Shown piece by piece: positions 17,250-26,458 of a DNA stretch of 64,000 nt. The DNA is from Halanaeroarchaeum sp. HSR-CO (GTDB lineage Archaea; Halobacteriota; Halobacteria; Halobacteriales; Halobacteriaceae). Both the position numbers and the translations under genes were made by a program. The notes under the pieces were generated by a model. The model did no database searches. It had not been told where the DNA came from and worked only from the letters and a program-made list of their open reading frames with translations. The stretch spans positions 1,860,001 to 1,924,000 of the forward strand of contig NZ_CP087724.1 in the NCBI RefSeq assembly GCF_024972755.1, given 5' to 3'. Each line of letters starts with the position of its first letter. The stretch's first letter is position 1.

Positions 17250-17905
17250 GCGAGGAGAGCGCGGGTAGCGATACGACGGCCAGCGACGTGGTCGCTACGT
17301 ACGACGAGATCGCCGCCCACTTCGCCACCAAGCGAAAGAACCCCTGGCCTGAAGTCACCTCGTTCCTCGACGGAGTCGAGAGTACCACGGCCCTCGACGT
17401 CGGGTGTGCGAACGGACGCCACACCGAGTTGCTCGCCGCCGTCGCCGACCGAGCGATCGGCCTGGACGCCAGCCGGGCATTACTGTCCGAAGCCGAATCT
17501 CGAAGGGACGACCACAATTTCGACGCCATTCTCCTCCAGGGTGACGCCAGTCGACTCCCCCTCCGCGAGGACAGCGTCGACCTCGCGACCTACGTTGCGA
17601 CGATGCACCACCTGCCGACGAGGGAGGCGCGAGTCGAAAGCCTCGACGAACTCGCACGCGTCCTGACGCCGGCCGGTCGTGCCCTGGTGAGCGTCTGGAG
17701 CACCGAACACGACCGGTTCGACGAGACCCAGGGGTTCGATACGACCGTGACGTTCACGATGCCGGACGGACGAGCGGTGCCCAGATACTACCACATCTAC
17801 GACCCGTCGGAGTTCGGTACCGACCTCGAGGCGAGTGCGGTAGGAGTCGAGCGAGAGTGGGTCTCGAATGGCAATTGCTATGCGGTGGTCACGGGGTCGG
17901 AGTGA
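17246..17905 (+). CDS. class I SAM-dependent methyltransferase
   Basis: A 219-residue methyltransferase. Motif I is LDVGCANGRH near residue 51, with an acidic residue at the end of strand 2 (GLDAS), motif II LQGDASRLPLREDSVD near 92, and a THHL-like stretch (TMHHLP) typical of the ubiE/Trm9 group. It resembles tRNA wobble-uridine methyltransferases and small-molecule methyltransferases; which one is not decidable. Its ATG overlaps the pilus core gene by 4 bases (ATGA), so it is translated from the same message. Any role in modifying the pilus system is inference. Confidence 0.82.
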   Translation: MSEESAGSDTTASDVVATYDEIAAHFATKRKNPWPEVTSFLDGVESTTALDVGCANGRHTELLAAVADRAIGLDASRALLSEAESRRDDHNFDAILLQGDASRLPLREDSVDLATYVATMHHLPTREARVESLDELARVLTPAGRALVSVWSTEHDRFDETQGFDTTVTFTMPDGRAVPRYYHIYDPSEFGTDLEASAVGVEREWVSNGNCYAVVTGSE

Positions 17906-17944
17906 TGATCGGTCCGGTTCGCCGAGTCGTGAATGGAAACGTCC

Positions 17945-17950
17945 TTATTT
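17945..17950 (+). promoter_or_regulatory. TATA-like box of tRNA-Gly
   Basis: TTATTT, with its centre about 26 bases before the mature 5' end of tRNA-Gly, the normal archaeal spacing. It suggests that transcription starts at or very near the mature tRNA 5' end and that the repeat array behind the tRNA would be read from this promoter. Confidence 0.55.
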
Positions 17951-17973
17951 GGGCAACCGGTAGACGAAAATGC

Positions 17974-18045
17974 GCGCCGATGGTCTAGCGGCTAGGACCT
18001 GAGCCTTCCAAGCTCATGGCCCGGGTTCAAATCCCGGTCGGCGCA
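17974..18045 (+). tRNA. tRNA-Gly (anticodon TCC)
   Basis: A complete cloverleaf of 72 bases. The 7-bp acceptor stem is GCGCCGA/TCGGCGC with discriminator A at 18045. The anticodon arm TGAGC-CTTCCAA-GCTCA gives anticodon TCC. The T-arm is CCGGG-TTCAAAT-CCCGG. CCA is not encoded. The last 22 bases (T-loop to discriminator) are the seed that is repeated in the array directly downstream. Confidence 0.95.
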
Positions 18046-18807
18046 GTTTTCCGAGCAGCCTGCGAGGAAAACGAGCACAGGGATTTGAATGACGGCAGGC
18101 GCAGCGCGAACGAAGTGAGCGACCGCCTGCAGGTGGTTCAAATCCCGGTCGGCGCAGTTTTCCGAGCAGCCTGCGAGGAAAACGAGCACAGGGATTTGAA
18201 TGACGGCAGGCGCAGCGCGAACGAAGTGAGCGACCGCCTGCAGGTGGTTCAAATCCCGGTCGGCGCAGTTTTCCGAGCAGCCTGCGAGGAAAACGAGCAC
18301 AGGGATTTGAATGACGGCAGGCGCAGCGCGAACGAAGTGAGCGACCGCCTGCAGGTGGTTCAAATCCCGGTCGGCGCAGTTCCAGGCAGCCGCAGGAAAA
18401 CAGCCTGAAATTTGAATGACGGCAGGCGCAGCGCGAACGAAGTGAGCGACCGCCTGCAGGTGGTTCAAATCCCGGTCGGCGCAGTTTTCCGAGCAGCCTG
18501 CGAGGAAAACGAGCACAGGGATTTGAATGACGGCAGGCGCAGCGCGAACGAAGTGAGCGACCGCCTGCAGGTGGTTCAAATCGGTCATCGCTTTGGATTT
18601 TCGAGCGGCCGCAAGGGAAAGCAGCACAGGGATTTGAATGACGGCAGGCGCAGCGCGAACGAAGTGAGCGACCGCCTGCAGGTGGTTCAAATCCCGGTCG
18701 GCGCAGTTTTCCGAGCAGCCTGCGAGGAAAACGAGCACAGGGATTTGAATGACGGCAGGCGCAGCGCGAACGAAGTGAGCGACCGCCTGCAGGTGGTTCA
18801 AATCCCG

Positions 18808-18822
18808 TTGGGCTTCGCCCAA
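18808..18822 (+). repeat. perfect hairpin before the terminal element of the tRNA-Gly array
   Basis: TTGGGC-TTC-GCCCAA: a 6-bp perfect stem with a 3-base loop, inserted where the last unit would continue from TTCAAATCCCG into the tRNA tail. The equivalent place in the tRNA-Arg array holds a different perfect palindrome (23652-23668). Confidence 0.85.
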
Positions 18823-18873
18823 CGACGTCCCCCTCACTTACTTCGCTCCCTCGCGGGACTCCCGGTCGGCGCA
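18823..18873 (+). repeat. terminal element of the tRNA-Gly array
   Basis: Runs from CGACGTCC through GCGGGACTCCC and ends in GGTCGGCGCA, the tRNA-Gly acceptor tail. A related block, CGACGT..CCC to GCGGGACTCCC ending in the tRNA-Arg tail GCCGCG, closes the second array at 23679-23721. GTCCC/GGGAC arms can pair in both. Confidence 0.75.
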
Positions 18874-18933
18874 GTTCTCCGAACCCAAATTACAGACTAG
18901 CCGGTCTGCCGCGTATTACCTGGGGAACGATGC

Positions 18934-19104
18934 CTACACGTCCTGTATTCCCGACCTGATGCCGGCGACGGTCTCCTCGTCCAGTTCCAGATCGGGGTGA
19001 GTACTCTCTGCGTGTTCCGCTGCCTCGCTCATGATTTCGTCTTCGGTCGCTGCCTCGAACGTCCGGTGACACCCATCGATCGGGCACTCGAGTCGTTTTG
19101 CCAT
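18934..19104 (-). CDS. DUF1059 family small protein
   Basis: A 56-residue protein starting MAKRLECPIDGCHRTFEA and continuing TEDEIMSEAAEHAESTHPDLEL. Cys7 and Cys12 with His29-30 and His36 positions give a small zinc-finger-like CxxxxC...H...H layout that is the hallmark of DUF1059. Family members are usually annotated as unknown; some haloarchaeal ones are thought to bind metal. The ATG at 19102-19104 has a minus-strand AT-rich box about 17-25 bases upstream. It lies just behind the tRNA-Gly array, convergent with it. Confidence 0.75.
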   Translation of the reverse strand: MAKRLECPIDGCHRTFEAATEDEIMSEAAEHAESTHPDLELDEETVAGIRSGIQDV

Positions 19105-19425
19105 GTGTCAACACACCATACTATGTTGCCGCGGAAAACGGTATCGAGGGCTGGAACGTACCTGGGACGTGTGAGCTACACATCCGGATACCGAACGAGT
19201 TCGGGGCCTCACGGATTCGCCATCGCGGGCCGCTCTACCGTCGACCCAATGGACAATTAGCACTGAGCCGACGGACCGCGACGTCGAGGATGTCGAATTC
19301 GCCTGGGAGGAACGTTCTCGTCACTAAAAGACGTTTAGATCCGTCTATGAACCGTCTCGGACGTTCTCCTCGCCCGATTTTCACCCATCCAGAGTAGTAC
19401 AAACCGGGTCCTCTGTCCATATGTA
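19105..19425. other. intergenic stretch, no gene seen
   Basis: 321 bases between the DUF1059 gene and the secreted protein gene, carrying both promoters. On the minus strand an AT-rich box near 19117-19126 fits the DUF1059 gene. Short open frames here have poor codon choice and no recognisable sequence. I see no RNA gene or strong repeat. Confidence 0.6.
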
Positions 19426-19941
19426 ATGCGACGAACCATCACTATCCTGCTCGTTGGAGCACTGGTCGCGGCTCTCGCCATCGGCGTGGTCGCCCCGGCC
19501 GTGAGTGCCCACGGCAGTACAGTCACACAACCGACGACGCCATATGACGACGGAGAGAACGCGACTGAAACGCAAGCGCAGTACATGACCGAGTGGATGG
19601 AGACCAGGATGGGGCCGGACGGTGTGGAATCCTTCGAGCAGCAGACCGGGACCACCGTCGAGGAGGTCGCTGCTGCGATGGCAGAACACATGGGTCCCAC
19701 GGACGGTACCTGGAACGCACCGGGGGATAGCCAGCAGTACGGTCCTAACGCTGGGCCTGGGTATCAGGCGCCCGGTTGGTGCCACGGTCCGATGATGCCC
19801 GGTGGGAACGGATACGGTCCCGGTCCGTGGAGTGGCAATGGCCCCGGTGCTGGCTACGGTAACGGTGGCGCCTACGGCCCCGGTGGCCACGGTCCCGGCA
19901 TGGGTGGACACATGGGTGGCGGGATGTTTGGCGGCTGGTAA
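19426..19941 (+). CDS. secreted Gly/Pro/Met/His-rich protein
   Basis: A 171-residue exported protein. Residues 1-28 are a Sec-type signal peptide (RR near the start, core ILLVGALVAALAIGVV, cleavage probably after AVSA). The middle (about 45-90) is an acidic helical stretch with TEWMETRMGPDGVESF and EEVAAAMAEHMG. The last 65 residues are low-complexity GPG/GYG/GGH/GGM repeats with several Met and His and one Cys (WCHGPMMPGG). Such tails can bind copper or other soft metals, but that is inference. It is not anchored: there is no lipobox and no C-terminal membrane helix. No family is recognised. Confidence 0.8.
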   Translation: MRRTITILLVGALVAALAIGVVAPAVSAHGSTVTQPTTPYDDGENATETQAQYMTEWMETRMGPDGVESFEQQTGTTVEEVAAAMAEHMGPTDGTWNAPGDSQQYGPNAGPGYQAPGWCHGPMMPGGNGYGPGPWSGNGPGAGYGNGGAYGPGGHGPGMGGHMGGGMFGGW

Positions 19942-20102
19942 GGTCCCCCCAGGTACACCAAACCCTCACCCAGTCAAGTACCCCTGAATCAGCTACATGC
20001 GGCGACTGCCTGAGTGACGGGTTTCTGGATTCTCGAACGCCATCGATCCCTCCGCCGTGTGGTAGCATAACAACAATGGGTACGAGCCCCCGATAGTAGC
20101 GC

Positions 20103-20669
20103 ATGAACGTCGCGTTCTGTGCCTACGACGGAATGACTGCCCTGGACTTCGTGGGCGGCTACGATCCCATCACTCGACTGCATCGGATGGATTTCCTCCC
20201 GCTCGAATGGGACGTCTGCGCCAGAACGGAGACCGTAACGACAGATGGGCTGACCCTCGATGTGGACCAGGTGAAGCCGGATCTGGGTTCCTACGACCTC
20301 GTCTTCGTCCCCGGCGGGATGGCGACGCGAGCCCTTCGTCACGACGAATCATTCGTCGAGTGGATCGGTACTGCGTCGGAGAGTGAGTACGTCACTTCCG
20401 TCTGTACGAGGTCGATACTCCTGGGTGCTGCTGGTCTCCTCGAGGGCAGGAGCGCGACGACACATCCGTCTGCGTTCGGCCTCCTCGAGAAGTACGCCGA
20501 GGTCGTCGATGACAGAGTCGTCCACGACGGACCGGTCATCACTGGCCGGGGCGTGTCCTCATCACTGGATCTCGGGTTGTACATCGTCGAGGAACTATCC
20601 GATAGAGACACCAGACGGGCCATCGCCGAGCAGATGGACTATCCGTACGACCCGCCATTCCAGGCGTAG
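20103..20669 (+). CDS. DJ-1/PfpI family protein
   Basis: A 188-residue class I glutamine-amidotransferase-like protein. The nucleophile elbow SVCTRSILLGAAGLL near residue 101 has the conserved Cys, preceded by DLVFVPGGMATR and followed by a HPSAF stretch in place of the usual histidine region. The sequence around the Cys is closest to the isonitrile-hydratase/ThiJ subgroup (CTGxxxLGAAGLL). The true substrate is unknown. Length is normal for the family. Confidence 0.85.
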   Translation: MNVAFCAYDGMTALDFVGGYDPITRLHRMDFLPLEWDVCARTETVTTDGLTLDVDQVKPDLGSYDLVFVPGGMATRALRHDESFVEWIGTASESEYVTSVCTRSILLGAAGLLEGRSATTHPSAFGLLEKYAEVVDDRVVHDGPVITGRGVSSSLDLGLYIVEELSDRDTRRAIAEQMDYPYDPPFQA

Positions 20670-20672
20670 ACT

Positions 20673-20698
20673 GTCCGCTGGGCAGTGATTGAGCGGAC
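20673..20698 (+). terminator. inverted repeat behind the DJ-1 gene
   Basis: GTCCGCT/AGCGGAC, a perfect 7-bp stem with a 12-base loop, starting 4 bases after the DJ-1 stop codon and followed by a short T-run further on (TCTTTT). It may serve as a terminator or only lie in the next promoter. Confidence 0.45.
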
Positions 20699-20712
20699 GA
20701 AGAGCCACAGTC

Positions 20713-20720
20713 TTTTATAC
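20713..20720 (+). promoter_or_regulatory. TATA box that decides the start at 20744
   Basis: TTTTATAC centred near 20717, 27 bases before the ATG at 20744. The GTG at 20726 would lie only about 10 bases from the box, which cannot be transcribed and translated normally. The leaderless ATG start at 20744 is therefore preferred. Confidence 0.7.
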
Positions 20721-20743
20721 CGACCGTGCGACCGTTTCAACGA

Positions 20744-21490
20744 ATGCGGACGTACCGATTCGTACGATTCCTGGGTGACCGCGTCGAGGCGGCGAGCCAG
20801 GAAGTCGCGCGGAACACGTCGGATTCGCGAGAGCCGGTCGAACGAATCACGAGCGGTGACGGCGACCCCCACGAGACGGTCCGCCGGGCCGTTCCGCGAA
20901 CCATCGCGAACCACGTGGACGGTACCTCGAAGTCGGCAGCCCGGTTTCAGGCCATCTCGGTCACGTCCGATGCAGACACCGAGACAGCGTCCCAAACGGA
21001 TCCCGACCTCGGGGTCGTGTTCCACGCGTCCGTCCCCGATTTCGAGCAGGTCACCGGGCTGGTCGCGAAGACAGTCGATGCGCGGGCACTCGCCGACCCC
21101 GAGTACAGCCTCGCAGAGATGAACGAAAGCGAGGCGCTGGACCGACTGCTCGCCATCACCGCGGATGCGTTCGTCCTCGTAGTTGGAGAGCGACGGGTCC
21201 ACGTCGTCCCGGCACAATCGGTTGCCGCGTTGACCGACCCGCAGCGACGACAGTCACCGCATCGCGAACTCTACTCGAGACAGCTCGGTCGGACGTTCGA
21301 GGAATTCACGGAGGGATTCATCGGTGACGTGACGATCGCACCCGACCTCTCGGCCGCCGATAGCCGCGCCGAGACGGAGCGGAAACTCCGTTCCTGGGCC
21401 GAGGAGACCGACCTCAAACAGGCGCTCGCGATCCGCGTGACAGCGACGACGGGGGAGACCGAGGCCACGCTGCAGGACTTCGTCGAGTGA
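20744..21490 (+). CDS. haloarchaeal protein of unknown function
   Basis: A 248-residue soluble acidic protein starting MRTYRFVRFLGDRVEAAS. It has no cysteine, signal or membrane segment. The centre (about 85-170) contains DLGVVFHASVPDFEQVTGLV and FVLVVGERRVHVVPAQSV, a predicted alpha/beta core. The C-terminal third is Glu-rich helix. The start is set by the TATA box at 20713-20720. I do not recognise the family. It is convergent with the HD-domain gene, 10 bases apart. Confidence 0.7.
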   Translation: MRTYRFVRFLGDRVEAASQEVARNTSDSREPVERITSGDGDPHETVRRAVPRTIANHVDGTSKSAARFQAISVTSDADTETASQTDPDLGVVFHASVPDFEQVTGLVAKTVDARALADPEYSLAEMNESEALDRLLAITADAFVLVVGERRVHVVPAQSVAALTDPQRRQSPHRELYSRQLGRTFEEFTEGFIGDVTIAPDLSAADSRAETERKLRSWAEETDLKQALAIRVTATTGETEATLQDFVE

Positions 21491-21500
21491 GGAGGGGCCA

Positions 21501-22337
21501 TCAGAGTTCGATGCGTTCGACGAGCTGGTCGTCTTTCGCGCCGATGTTGACCGCGACGATGCGGATGTCGTCCTCGAGCCCGGATTTTTCCAATTTCTCC
21601 TTGAGGAGTCCGTCCACCTGGTAGACGCCGGCGGCGTTCCGCATCCTGATCTCGACGAGGACGGGTTTTCCGTCGCCCTCGACGAGCGAGACGCTCTCGA
21701 TAGCCTGACTGGAGATGGTGTTGATACCTCTGCCACCCCGCTCGTACGGTATCCTGGAACGCCCCCGTTCCATGTCGAGGCCATCCGCGATCCGAATGAC
21801 GCCCGCCTCCGTCGTCAGGGGGTCTTCCGGCGTGTGATGACAGAGGATGGCGTGAAGCACCTCCGACTTCACGCGAACGGCTGCCTCCACGTCGTAGAAC
21901 TCGGGGAGGATTCTATCGAGGATGTCCGAAGCGAGGGGGATCGAATAGTAGGTGTGATCGTCTCGATGGACGACGTGACCGATATCGTGGAGGGTGGCCG
22001 CGAGCGCGATGATGACCGACTCGTCGGCTTCCTCCAGGCCCTGGTCGGCAGCGCCATTGAACTCGACATCACCCTGTTTCAGCAGTTCGTACAGGCGAAG
22101 CGCCCGGTTGCGGACGATCTGGATGTGTTTGGACCCGTGGTCGTTGAAACCCTTCCGAGCGACGGGGTTGACGTTCTGTGCGGACAGATAAGCCGTCACC
22201 TCGGGGTCCGAGAGAATGGTCTCGAGGACGGCGTTGAGGCGTTCGTCCGGAAACGCATGTTCCGCGTCCGGATCGTACTCCCGGCCATCACTGGGTGGAT
22301 CGTCGGTTGGCGGGCTGTCGTTGCGCATGTCGTACAC
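21501..22337 (-). CDS. HD-domain metal-dependent phosphohydrolase
   Basis: A 278-residue HD-superfamily protein. The metal-binding HD doublet is in ATLHDIGHVVHRDDHTYY near residue 128, with a further histidine pair in HAILCHHTPED and the Asp-containing IADGLDMERGRSRIP near 198. That RIADGLDM stretch is typical of archaeal HD proteins acting on nucleotides or phosphoesters. An N-terminal acidic region (1-35) is variable. The start may be this ATG or the one 3 codons in. Substrate unknown. Confidence 0.85.
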   Translation of the reverse strand: MYDMRNDSPPTDDPPSDGREYDPDAEHAFPDERLNAVLETILSDPEVTAYLSAQNVNPVARKGFNDHGSKHIQIVRNRALRLYELLKQGDVEFNGAADQGLEEADESVIIALAATLHDIGHVVHRDDHTYYSIPLASDILDRILPEFYDVEAAVRVKSEVLHAILCHHTPEDPLTTEAGVIRIADGLDMERGRSRIPYERGGRGINTISSQAIESVSLVEGDGKPVLVEIRMRNAAGVYQVDGLLKEKLEKSGLEDDIRIVAVNIGAKDDQLVERIEL

Positions 22338-22381
22338 GAAGGACGTGCCCGATGAAAAGTAGTGGTATCTGCTGTACTCGC

Positions 22382-22858
22382 TTACGCGGCCTCTTCAGCG
22401 GCCGTTTCGACGGCGTCGTAGTCTGGCTCGACGCCCGGATCGTCGCTGACCCACCGATAAGTTACTTCACCGGTCTCGTCGACGACGAACACCGCTCGTT
22501 TGGCCACGCCGTAGTAGCCCAGGTCGGCGAAGTCCATTGCCACGTCGTAGGCCTCGATGGCCGATTTCTCGTGGTCGCTGATCAGACCGAACTGCAGGTC
22601 GTGCGCGTCGCGGAATTCGTTCAGCGAGAAGGGCGTGTCCACGCTGATGCCGAAGACCGTCGCGCCGACCTCGTTGAACTGCGCCATCTCGTCCCGAAAG
22701 GTACACATCTCGTCGGTGCAGACGCTCGTGAACGCCCCCGGGAAAAAGGCGAGGACCACAGGCCCATCGTCGAGTTCGTCGGAAAGGGAGAATGCTTCGA
22801 TGTCTCCGTTCGCGAGCGGCGCACTGATTTCTGGTGCTTCGTCACCGATTTCGACCAT
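22382..22858 (-). CDS. peroxiredoxin (AhpC/TSA family)
   Basis: A 158-residue thiol peroxidase that reduces hydrogen peroxide and organic peroxides. The peroxidatic motif PGAFTSVC is at residues 40-47 (Pro40, Thr44, Cys47), and a second Cys at 52 could be the resolving residue as in BCP-type enzymes. Arg near 123 (YRWVSDDPG region) matches the family's later conserved positions. ATG at 22856-22858 is chosen since MVEIGDEAP is the normal N-terminus; 24 upstream codons in frame are not conserved. Cytoplasmic. Confidence 0.9.
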   Translation of the reverse strand: MVEIGDEAPEISAPLANGDIEAFSLSDELDDGPVVLAFFPGAFTSVCTDEMCTFRDEMAQFNEVGATVFGISVDTPFSLNEFRDAHDLQFGLISDHEKSAIEAYDVAMDFADLGYYGVAKRAVFVVDETGEVTYRWVSDDPGVEPDYDAVETAAEEAA

Positions 22859-22975
22859 ATATATTGGAGGGAGGAGAGCCCAATGACGGTTGTGCAAGGG
22901 GCGAGACGCTCTTCGATTCGGCAATATCACCGAGCAAAAAGCCTATAATCAGCAATAGGCTACGAACGAATAGAG

Positions 22976-23245
22976 ATGATCGACGCACTACCACTGTTCG
23001 TGGGCGGGATGCCAGGCGGGATGGAGCTGGCCGTCATCCTGCTGATCGCCGTCTTGCTGTTCGGCGCGAACAAGATTCCGAAGCTCGCCCGCTCTACGGG
23101 GCAGGCGATGGGAGAGTTCCAGAAAGGCCGCGAAGAAGTCGAACAGGAGTTAGAGGAGATCCGCGAAGGTCCTGGCGAGGCGACCTCGGAGGCCCTGGGC
23201 GAGGAGTCGTCCGAAGCCGAAAGCGAATCGTCAACCGAAGCGTAA
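22976..23245 (+). CDS. tatA: twin-arginine translocase subunit TatA
   Basis: An 89-residue TatA/E protein. It has a short hydrophobic helix (MELAVILLIAVLLFG), the FGxxKxPxLxR hinge as FGANKIPKLAR, an amphipathic helix (STGQAMGEFQKGREE) and a highly acidic, Ser/Glu-rich tail. TatA forms the pore for folded proteins with twin-arginine signals. Haloarchaea send most of their exported proteins this way, including the BMP lipoprotein in this window. No tatC is nearby. Confidence 0.92.
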   Translation: MIDALPLFVGGMPGGMELAVILLIAVLLFGANKIPKLARSTGQAMGEFQKGREEVEQELEEIREGPGEATSEALGEESSEAESESSTEA

Positions 23246-23278
23246 TCGTTTTTCGCGGTAGCGTCCGATTACCTGGTA

Positions 23279-23351
23279 GGGCGCGTGGCCTAGCGGATAG
23301 GGCGAGAGGTTCCTAACCTCTCGATCGCGGGTTCAAATCCCGCCGCGCCCG
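23279..23351 (+). tRNA. tRNA-Arg (anticodon CCT)
   Basis: A complete 73-base cloverleaf. The acceptor stem is GGGCGCG/CGCGCCC with discriminator G at 23351. The anticodon arm AGAGG-TTCCTAA-CCTCT gives anticodon CCT. The T-arm contains CGGG-TTCAAAT-CCCG. CCA is not encoded. It lies 33 bases after tatA, with a T-rich stretch (23249-23253) at promoter distance. Its 3' end seeds the array downstream. Confidence 0.95.
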
Positions 23352-23721
23352 TTTTGCTGCGAACAAACCGTGAGCAGCAAACGGCGGGGGATTTGAGCCC
23401 TGAAAGACGAACGAAGTGAGTCTTTCTCTGGTTCAAATCCCGCCGCGCCCGTGCAGCGACCGGAGGGAGCGAACCGGCACGCGGGATTTGAATCAGAGAG
23501 TGAAAGAAGCGGAGTGACTGGAACGACCGTGGTTCAAATCCCGCCGCGCCCGTGCAGGGAGGAGCGTAGCGCCGACCGAACCGGCGCATGGGATTTGAAT
23601 CAGGGAGGAGCTTTGCTCCGACCGTGGTTCAAATCCCATCGAGTCCGTTCACGATTTCGTCGAAATCGCTCACTTCCCCGACGTAGTCCCACTCGCTTGC
23701 GTTCGCGGGACTCCCGCCGCG
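23352..23721 (+). repeat. array of diverged tRNA-Arg-tail units with terminal element
   Basis: Three units of about 100 bp (23352-23451, 23452-23552, 23553-23647) end in a copy of the tRNA-Arg T-loop plus acceptor 3' strand; the third copy has drifted to TCCCATCGAGTCCG. Each unit carries an antisense ATTTGA segment upstream of a variable hairpin. Unit 1 opens with GTTTTGCTGC/GCAGCAAAC, like the GTTTT hairpin of the tRNA-Gly array, and has GAAAGAC/GTCTTTC capped by GAACGAAGTGA. After unit 3 come a perfect palindrome (23652-23668) and a block (23679-23721) related to the terminal element of the other array, ending in TCCCGCCGCG of tRNA-Arg. Unit sequences differ greatly while the design is kept. 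Confidence 0.9.
23652..23668 (+). repeat. perfect palindrome before the terminal element of the tRNA-Arg array
   Basis: CGATTTCG-T-CGAAATCG, an 8-bp stem with a single central base. It takes the same place as the TTGGGC hairpin in the tRNA-Gly array. Confidence 0.8.
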
Positions 23722-23884
23722 TTCGTTCACGTATCCAATCGCCACCAGCGAGTGATCCGAATGGTTCGGACCCACACAATATCGCCCCTCGCCTTATACC
23801 ACCGGACCTACTGTCTCGAATTATGTGACGCGTGGCAAGTGGATCGGGATCCACGACCGCGCGGACGAATGCCGTCAGACAGAT

Positions 23885-26458
23885 ATGAAACGACTCATCT
23901 CCCGTCCGAACACCCGGTTCAAGATCTCCGAGAAGGTGACGGTCCTCCTGCTCGTGATGGTCCTCGTCGCGCTCGTCAATATCACGGTGATCTACTCGTA
24001 CCACCAGCAGGTCGAAGACGACGGCAACTCCGTGAACATCGCGGGACAGCAACGGATGTTGTCCCAGCGGATGCTATGGTTCGCCAGCGATATCGCCCAC
24101 GGCGAGAATCCCGACCAGGCGCGCGACCGACTCCGTGTGAGTATCGACCGATACGACCGAAATCTCAACGCGCTGCTGTACGGCGGGCGGGTGACTGATA
24201 CGCAATTGAATCCAGAGAGCGAGACGGACGATACCATGCCATCGGTAGTTCTCCGAGGTGAATCGTTACAGGAACCACCGGCGGCTGCAAAGGACGAACT
24301 CGCCACCCAGGCCGAGGTCTGGGAGGAGTACAAACCACACATCGTCACCGTCCTGAACGCCGACCCCGAGTCCGAAGCCTTCCAGGAATCGCTGGCGTAC
24401 GTCCGCGCGGAGAACGATCGGTTGCTCGCGACGAGCGACGCGGCCACTGCCGAGTTGACCGAGGTCATACGGGTCGAGCGCCAGGCCCTCCAGCGGATGC
24501 TCGTGGTGTTGCTGGGCGTCGACGTCCTCGTGGCGTTGCTCGGGAGCATGTTCGCCAGACAGTACCTCGGAAAGCCCATGGCTGCCATCGCGACGAAGGG
24601 TCTTCGGCTGGCAGAGGGTGAACTGGACGACGACGCGGCGCCGGATCCACCGGTCGACCATTCGATGCCGCTCGCGGACCAACGCTCGGAACTCGCCAGG
24701 TTGAGTCGTTCGTGTGCCGAGGTCCAGGAGTATCTGCAGACGGTCTCCGGCCAATCGCGAGCGCTCGCAGCCCGGGATTTCGACGCGGACGTATTCGAAG
24801 CCGAGGTGCCGGGCGAGCTCGGGGTCGCCCTCGAGACGATGCACGACGACATCCAGGAGTACATCCACGACCTCCAGACGACGACGGAGAAACTGGATGC
24901 GATCATCGAGGCCTCACCCGCTGCGATCTACATCACGGACACCCGCGGAAACGTACAGCGATGGAATCCGGCAGCAAGCCGGATGTTCGGCTGGTAGGAG
25001 TCCACTGTACTTGGCCAGCACGATCCCACGATCCCCGACGACGGTCGAGACGACTATCGGACCCTCCGTTCGCGGGTGCTGGCGGGCGAATCGCTCACGG
25101 GCGTGGAGCGTCGCCGGATCACGAAATCGGGCGAGAGAATCGACGTGAGCATCTCGACGGCGACGGTCGCGGACCCGGACGGGGACATCGAGGGAGTCAT
25201 GACCGTCGTCGAGGACATCAGCGAGCGCAAGGAGCGCGAGCGAATGTTACGCCGGCAACGCGACGATCTGGAACTCATGGATCGAGTGACCGACATCGTC
25301 CTCGATATCACGCGCGAACTCGTCGACTCCTCGGACCAGGACCGGATCGAGGAACTCGTGTGTACGCAACTCGCCGATGCGGAGCGGTACGCCACCACCT
25401 GGATTGCCGAATCGGTGGGCAGCCCTGACGAACTCGCCTTGCGCATCGGTGCGACCGAGTCGGGCGCGGTCATCGAAGACGATGAAGAGCGTATCGAGAT
25501 GAATATCGGCCACCGAGTCGGCATCCAGGCGATGGAGTCAGGCGAGGTCCAGGTTCGGGAGGTTCCCGACGAGGCGACAGGCGAAAACGAGGAACCGGAT
25601 ACCGCGGCAGCCGAAGAGGTCGCCGCATTCCCGCTCTCCCACCGTGGCTCGGTCTACGGCGTACTCGTGGTCCAGACACTGGGCGGCTTCTCGTTCAGAG
25701 AGCAGGAACTCGCCGGGTTGGCCACCCTCGGCAAGACCATCGGATTCGCCAGGAACGCCATCACGAACAAGAAGTTGCTGTTCGCGGACAGCGTCGTTGA
25801 CCTCAGGTTCACGGTGGACGAGACGGCAGTCCCGTTCGTCGAGACGACCGCCAATCTCGACTGTCGAGCATGGCTCGACGGGCTCGTCGTCTCGACGACC
25901 GACGACTCGGTCACGGTCTATCTCGGCATCGATGAGACCACACCGGCCAAATTCGTGGAGACCGTAGTCGATGAGCGAGACGTCAGCGAGGCCTGGGTTA
26001 TCGCCGACGAATCCAATCACAAACGGGTCGGCGTCACGCTGGACGACGATGCTTCGATGGGTCGACTCTCCCACCAGGAGGTGACCCTCCACCATATCGA
26101 TATCGAGGCGGGATCCGGAGATTACGGCTTCGAAGCGCCGTTGTCAGTGGATGTCTCGGCACTCGTCGAAGATCTACAGGAGTGGTATCCGGGTATTCAG
26201 TTGCAGGCGAAACGGGAGAAGGACAAACCGGTCACCACGGCGGCGGACGTAGCCACGACGATGGAGTCCACGCTCACCGATCGACAGTACGAGATATTCG
26301 AGACGGCCTACTACGGTGGCTACTTCGAGTGGCCGCGGGACAGCACCATCGAGGAGCTCGCGGACAGTCTCGACATCGCTGGATCGACGTTCCACCATCA
26401 CCTGCGTCATGCGCAGCGAAAACTCGCGACCGCGCTCGTTCGCCGGGAAGAGGACTGA
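23885..26458 (+). pseudogene. membrane PilJ-type/HAMP/PAS/GAF/Bat regulator interrupted by an in-frame amber codon
   Basis: One continuous frame of 857 codons broken only by TAG at 24995-24997. The N-terminal part (370 residues from ATG 23885) has a membrane helix (VTVLLLVMVLVALVNITVIY), a PilJ-type sensor region (NIAGQQRMLSQRM), a second helix (MLVVLLGVDVLVALLGSMF), a HAMP-like linker and the first half of a PAS domain ending RMFGW. Without any frame change the sequence resumes ESTVLGQHD and completes the PAS (RRITKSGERIDVSIS, then VEDISERK). It continues with a GAF domain, a Bat central domain and a C-terminal HTH_10 (IEELADSLDIAGSTFHHHLRHAQ). The downstream half could start at GTG 25076 (460 residues) or ATG 25199. 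GC3 and composition stay normal after the stop, so the break is recent, is read through, or the halves work separately. Confidence 0.8.

Follow-up and report, generated by a model that had tools for sequence, protein, structure and literature searches.

Repeats of the rtT/tyrT type are tandem units that lie after a tRNA gene and carry its last ~19 nucleotides, and a stable RNA of ~170 nucleotides is released from them. Casposons, in turn, insert at the 3′ ends of genes, including those of tRNAs, with duplications of 14 to 15 bp. Several short repeats are known from haloarchaea, among them SMRs, PATEs (Haloquadratum), and MITEs; they are non-coding and rich in palindromes, and some of them occur without target duplication (PMC3119063). 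The 3′ ends of tRNA genes are classical integration sites in archaea (PMC8371274), and the att sites of pT26-2 plasmids have in common a palindrome that is formed from the two T-stem strands (PMC6972569).

The array that directly follows tRNA-Gly(UCC) in the window (the whole 64-kb stretch of DNA that was analyzed, to which the coordinates of this array refer) fits the tyrT-type layout, with tandem units after a tRNA that carry its last ~19 nucleotides. The parallel with the tyrT locus of Escherichia coli, which had been drawn in the original prediction, is right and is closer than was claimed: the 178-bp tyrT/tyrV unit (strain K-12, NC_000913.3, positions 1286900-1288200) also carries an antisense segment of its own tRNA (GGGGAAGGAT, to be compared with the tRNA-Tyr tail ATCCTTCCCC). 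In both systems, a tail, a spacer, an antisense segment, a spacer, and a tail follow one another in tandem after the tRNA. However, the E. coli arrangement is confined to a single locus, whereas the haloarchaeal one is found at about half of the tRNAs in a whole class. The E. coli copy extends from AATCC through CCA and on into the trailer, whereas the haloarchaeal copy stops at the discriminator. The tyrT repeat also differs in having no sequence relation to the haloarchaeal units, a spacer of ~130 nucleotides, and an overlap with the small ORF tpr and with the annotated small RNA RttR.

Other described systems resemble the units in part. SMRs, PATEs, and MITEs are likewise short, non-coding, and palindrome-rich, but their termini are fixed, whereas the units keep to the 3′ ends of tRNAs and take both their tail copy (T) and their antisense segment (T′) from the host site. 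Because T and T′ differ from one host tRNA or protein gene to the next, transposable elements whose ends are constant, such as a MITE, SMR, or PATE, were rejected as an explanation. The att sites of tyrosine integrases that target tRNAs (SSV, SNJ2, and pT26-2) share with the units the use of the 3′ part of the tRNA and the rebuilding of that tRNA, but the units measure ~100 bp rather than kilobases, contain no integrase gene, include an internal inverted half-site, and stand in tandem. CRISPR arrays and casposons also have arrays of repeat units with duplication of the repeat; in the units, however, the inner segments are structured, repeated, and palindromic rather than unique spacers, and the tail of the host gene serves as the repeat, which led us to reject a CRISPR array at the tRNA.

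We tentatively assign the array to a family of DNA cassettes that is specific to haloarchaea and located at tRNA 3′ ends; the cassettes would be short, palindromic, and non-coding. As far as the open-access literature shows, this family is unreported, since no description of haloarchaeal tRNA-tail arrays was found there.

Units downstream of tRNA genes in the source genome

The gene for tRNA-Gly(UCC) lies on the forward strand at 17974..18045 (ARAGORN; Rfam RF00005, 66.6 bits), and its tail, which comprises tRNA positions 54-73 and serves as the template of T, occupies 18026-18045 of the same strand. Seven units of ~111 bp had been predicted directly 3′ of this tRNA, and both their sequence and their coordinates were confirmed, with TRF reporting a period of 111, 7.1 copies, and 92% matches (score 1373) at 18024-18807. 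A full unit has the order T - A - T′ - B - T, where A and B are hairpins, T is the tail of the unit's own tRNA (positions 54-73), and T′ is the antisense of positions 54-65. Across loci, units are about 75-250 bp long.

All units of this array are on the forward strand. Unit 1 (18046..18156; 111 bp) consists of an A hairpin at 18046-18073, T′ at 18080-18089, a B hairpin at 18090-18136, and a T copy at 18137-18156. Unit 2 (18157..18267; T′ at 18191, T copy at 18248-18267) and unit 3 (18268..18378; T′ at 18302, T copy at 18359-18378) are identical to unit 1, at 111 bp each, and this predicted identity upholds the view that the array is young or homogenized. Unit 4 (18379..18483; 105 bp) has a damaged A and T′ (CTGAAATTTGAA) and an intact T copy at 18464-18483. 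The T copy of unit 5 (18484..18594; 111 bp; T′ at 18518), located at 18575-18594, is diverged (TTCAAATCGGTCATCG...), and unit 6 (18595..18705; 111 bp; T′ at 18629) has a variant A hairpin and an intact T copy at 18686-18705. In unit 7 (18706..18816; T′ at 18740), the T copy that begins at 18797 is intact only over TTCAAATCCC and then passes into a different hairpin. A terminal variant (18817..18873) completes the array; TCCCGGTCGGCGCA, a final T-stem/acceptor copy that ends at 18873, closes its hairpins.

The exact 20-base tail TTCAAATCCCGGTCGGCGCA is found in the tRNA itself at 18026 and in copies at 18137, 18248, 18359, 18464, and 18686, and the antisense GGGATTTGAA is found at 18080, 18191, 18302, 18518, 18629, and 18740. 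The T-arm antisense is present in the units as claimed (damaged in unit 4), but it spans tRNA positions 54-65 only and not the whole acceptor strand. Each unit had been described as a palindrome around one inner hairpin, but it contains both an A and a B hairpin, and its antisense could base-pair with either of the neighboring tails. In an Rfam cmscan of 17400-24000, tRNAs alone scored above the threshold, and there was no match to the rtT family.

A second array follows tRNA-Arg(CCU) (23279-23351) at 23352..23647 of the forward strand. Copies of that tRNA's own tail are located at 23432-23451 and 23533-23552, a third copy at 23628 is diverged, and T′ is found at 23388, 23483, and 23590. When the source genome was searched with the Gly(UCC) array, Gly, Ser, Lys, and Met tRNAs were found to have their own versions of it. 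Each tRNA locus was analyzed as an individual stretch, and a tRNA was counted as occupied if at least one own-tail copy lies within 800 nucleotides downstream. By this measure, own-tail copies are located 3′ of 24 of the 43 tRNA genes in the source genome, in comparison to 1 of 43 in the upstream control, and their presence is not due to chance. Ten copies of the A hairpin TTTTCCGAGCRGCCTGCGAGGAAAA are present in this genome; every one immediately follows the tail of a tRNA, with four tRNA species represented. Units of the terminal-variant type, in which a long hairpin (e.g., CCCGCTCGTTTCACTCGCGGGAGTCCC) stands in place of the T-loop and is closed by a T-stem/acceptor copy, are also found after the Arg(ccg), Gly(ccc), Gly(gcc), and Glu(ctc) tRNAs of the source genome.

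Occurrence across haloarchaea and the fit of units to their sites

Similar arrays had been predicted in related genomes, and this expectation was strongly borne out in a comparative set of one genome per species. Own-tail copies are located downstream of 28 of 45 tRNA genes in a congener (G001), 21 of 44 in Haloferax sulfurifontis (L189), and 20 of 39 and 17 of 37 in two Natrinema species; among 48 tRNAs of the phylum's other classes, none has such a copy. The tails of tRNAs other than the own one match the same stretches less (5-9% for T and 12-23% for T′), the latter range being not negligible because T-loops are alike. Between congeners, the occupancy of tRNA genes is significantly associated (21 occupied in both, 13 in neither, and 6 discordant; P = 3e−5), whereas occupancy in the source genome and in Haloferax is uncorrelated (P = 0.33). 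The arrays are therefore inherited yet turning over. Crowding by downstream genes, as judged by a crude ORF test, does not clearly differ between tRNAs with and without arrays. Four arrays (L097, L186, L193, and L196) have a tRNA tail remnant and no tRNA detected nearby, and were probably split off by an integrated element.

The B hairpins form families, in which the feet are conserved and the tips variable across tRNA species and genera: B1 (TCAGGGA...GACCGTGG), B2 (GTCGCAG...GACCGTC), B3 (GACCGAGGTTCTGCG...GGTTCTCGG), and B4 (GAGAGAA...CGTTCGCGT). Many units (99 of 182) fall outside B1-B4. The B1 core is present in 188 of the 294 genomes of the class and in 61 of its 78 genera (reversed-pattern control, 0), and in a scan of 84,980 species genomes, the matches listed are from haloarchaea only. 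Among sampled B1 copies, 147 of 161 lie within 400 nucleotides 3′ of a same-strand tRNA, against a background in which just 7% of positions fall within 1 kb. B modules inverted relative to the tRNA were found in 0 cases, which removed simple flipping of B by an invertase from consideration. Inspection of the units by eye revealed no kink-turn, BHB, or attC-like motifs.

Both T and T′ are specific to the tRNA that they follow. In 142 distinct B1 units, the T copies match their own tail at ~94% per position, with 76 of them perfect, and T′ has 1046 Watson-Crick matches to positions 57-65 of its own tRNA, in comparison to a permutation mean of 843 (sd 10.7, maximum 877; z = 19); the B1-based statistics are conditioned on the conserved B core, and related units are not fully independent. 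The complementarity of T′ to its own tRNA peaks at the universal T-loop core, falling from 0.94 at position 57 to 0.52 at position 65. In the B1 units, antisense to the acceptor strand at positions 66-69 is at chance level, and positions 70-73 show a second, weak own-specific match (24 versus 8.7). One extra base is found inside the T-loop of 20 T copies (TTCAcAATCC, TTCAAtATCC, etc.), the remaining tail being mostly intact; these copies belong to Thr, Leu, Gly, His, Ile, and other tRNAs from several genera (e.g., L132, L149, L150, L188, and L231).

One array is located at a protein-coding gene. In Natronorubrum texcoconense (L091:950-1300, reverse strand), three units lie at the end of such a gene, with no tRNA. 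The codons CGG TTC GAA CCG GTC TGA of this gene mimic a T-arm (GGTTCGAACC; gene end, ...GGTTCGAACCGGTCTGA), and the encoded protein of 119 amino acids, whose gene adjoins a thiolase-like gene, ends in ...DWDGYRFEPV, a conserved C-terminus. The T copies reproduce the local sequence (the full ones contain the stop codon too), and T′ reads GCCGGTTCGAA. The array is also present in a sister species and in another genus (L238, L239, and L242); homologues across the family are mostly without it (e.g., ...GGTTCGAACCGGTCTAG). Given that an array at a T-arm-like end of a protein gene copies the sequence found there, it is the T-arm-like site that counts, and the copied sequence is whatever local sequence this site holds. 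The direct repeat is ~22 bp at tRNAs and ~15 bp at the protein gene, a difference that argues against a fixed target duplication.

Changes in paired positions

In comparisons of sister species, double changes kept pairing in 31 cases and broke it in 4 (22:2 and 9:2 in two sets). Single changes in paired positions gave 14 G-U and 15 A-C pairs (small counts), in comparison to 4 G-U and 0 A-C in the stems of tRNAs of the same species, which were used as a control. The T-loop of Lys(ttt) is TTCAAGT or TTCAACT depending on the species, and both T′ and the T copy follow (GGGACTTGAG / GGGAGTTGAG). Because selection on transcript folding would tolerate G-U more than A-C, the 14:15 ratio indicates that pairing in the units probably persists for a reason other than folding of the sense RNA. 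Although the difference is modest, pairing may well be preserved in the DNA itself, either because the palindrome is selected or because one arm is copied from the other.

These counts bear on the hypothesis, which we consider unlikely, that the units work as RNA that is co-transcribed with the tRNA and acts in 3′ processing, termination, or tRNA folding or as a decoy of enzymes. If tRNA folding were affected (a variant that we include in the same judgment), T′ would compete for the tRNA's own T-arm, and the distal T would sequester T′. Compensatory pairing in A, in B, and between T′ and T is in agreement with a role as RNA, as are the orientation of the units, which is strictly that of the tRNA, and the overlap of the E. 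coli counterpart with RttR. The predicted RNA fold of tRNA-Gly(UCC) with unit 1 (z = −4.7) is also in its favor, because in the minimum-energy structure the 5′ strand of the tRNA pairs with the distal acceptor copy. Furthermore, the sense strand folds better than the antisense strand: A hairpins are more stable as RNA on the tRNA-sense strand than on the other strand in a ratio of 85:28, and B hairpins are likewise sense-favored. However, G-U pairs in A are fewer on the sense strand (72 versus 111), and the bias of A, which by this counting does not come from G-U pairs, was dropped as proof of selection on RNA. The balance of G-U and A-C among single changes, set against 4:0 in tRNA stems, also argues against RNA, and so do the absence of units from half of all tRNA genes, the lack of relation between occupancy in the source genome and in Haloferax, and the T-runs (terminators), which do not differ between tRNAs with and without arrays. 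In particular, the original prediction that a read-through RNA would act as a decoy for RNase Z or the CCA-adding enzyme is unsupported, given the near-equal G-U and A-C counts and the array at a protein gene that has no tRNA. If the units did act as RNA, they would represent a new layer in the biology of tRNA 3′ ends.

Gain, loss, and exchange of units

At the Thr(tgt) locus of Natrinema, a filled allele (L171/L268) was compared with two empty ones (L269/L270), with flanks that are 94% identical. The difference between filled and empty is exactly A-T′-B-T, with the direct repeat GGTTCAAATCCCCGCCCTGGCTT. Other Natrinema congeners have remnants of A at this locus, and the empty alleles are therefore likely losses by recombination between the direct repeats. 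At Gly(gcc), sister species differ by an exact unit in the same way. One species has an extra tRNA-proximal unit relative to its sister at Val(cac) and at Met, an extra distal unit distinguishes sister species at Glu(ttc), and several units in one species correspond to one in its sister at Arg(cct). A search for a recent donor of the extra Val(cac) unit gave no near-identical sequence, the best match being the Trp locus (79%). Units are gained and lost between sister species as precise T-to-T blocks, and they amplify in tandem. At Arg(tct), A, T′, and T are kept, and B belongs to B1 in one species and to B4 in its sister; at Ser(tga), A from one unit is joined to B from another. Different tRNA loci have A and B modules in common or have exchanged them.

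The direct repeat of the tRNA 3′ end that flanks the insertion at Thr(tgt), seen when filled and empty alleles are compared, would also fit integrative-element scars, in which a virus or plasmid integrates at the tRNA and, on imperfect excision, leaves a T copy behind as its attR. Such elements commonly integrate at archaeal tRNA 3′ ends (PMC8371274), and the few tRNA-less arrays with a tail remnant look as if they were displaced by integration. We nevertheless find this origin highly improbable, because the units, at about 75-250 bp, are structured and too short for integrase or element genes, because their own-specific antisense and conserved B motifs are unlike att scars, and because they are nearly absent from viruses (1, 0, and 0 matches of three B types to 2.9 million viral contigs). 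Scars of one single integrated element fail as an explanation, since the units occur at many tRNAs in many genera and each fits its own tRNA. The sole viral contig with B1 (L087; IMGVR_UViG_3300000875_000004) has tRNA-Glu(ttc) and its unit near the contig end, perhaps as the host flank of a provirus.

A purely mutational origin would involve neither a recombinase nor a function: palindromes next to tRNAs would be subject to template switching and to slippage during replication, slippage would duplicate T, and quasi-palindrome correction would make T′. The precision of T-to-T deletion is consistent with this process, and so are the large excess of kept over broken double changes without a G-U bias and the complementarity of T′, which weakens with distance from the universal T-loop core (from 0.94 at position 57 to 0.52 at position 65). 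However, the B families are conserved across tRNA species and genera, and A hairpins are common to unrelated tRNAs. To be common to different tRNA loci, modules must travel from one to another, and local mutation does not bring this about. Given also the restriction of the units to haloarchaea, we judge mutation alone to be a distinctly unlikely source of the arrays.

Under the hypothesis of palindromic DNA cassettes, a cassette would be composed of hairpin A, T′, hairpin B, and T, with T copying the part of the host site that begins at the T-loop and ends with the tRNA, and T′ representing the reverse complement of the host T-loop and T-stem strand. It is quite possible that cassettes use the T-arm as their site of insertion or recombination and stay matched to the host site. 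The T-arm palindrome (GG-TTCRAAY-CC) would be recognized during insertion or recombination, as happens with several tyrosine integrases of archaea, and the responsible enzyme would act in trans; no transposase or integrase linked to the units was identified. Each T-to-T event would rebuild the tRNA and would therefore be of little cost to the cell, and the direct repeats would allow the array to grow and shrink. Hairpin-templated repair or template switching between the inverted arms, or compensation, may match T′ to the host T. More doubtful is the stronger proposal that the unit is a gene-free, self-renewing palindrome of ~100 bp, which rewrites its own T and T′ to fit its tRNA or tRNA-like site and is upheld across the class by dedicated recombination. 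Several observations count against cassettes: the units are linked to no transposase or integrase, viral contigs have almost no matches, B is never inverted, the sense strand of A folds better, which hints at a strand-specific role, and the direct repeat differs in length between tRNAs and the protein gene. In addition, the empty Thr(tgt) alleles may be losses, the extra Val(cac) unit has no near-identical donor, and the G-U and A-C counts are small.

If the cassette hypothesis is correct, an unannotated genetic element is present at about half of the tRNA genes of an archaeal class, and the little-studied tyrT repeats of E. coli become a case of a general phenomenon. The units would then offer a candidate reason for the attraction of mobile DNA to tRNA 3′ ends. 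They would also provide a testable system for DNA that stays complementary to a host site, in which compensation without a G-U bias points to copying at the DNA level, and dozens of natural test loci would be available in culturable Haloferax and Natrinema.

At the Thr(tgt) locus, nine further Natrinema sequences (L273, L275, L278-L281, L284, L286, and L292) have a different conserved trailer just 3′ of the tRNA, TTGAATCC..AGGTTCAAAGC, which is again a palindrome made from GGTTCAA.
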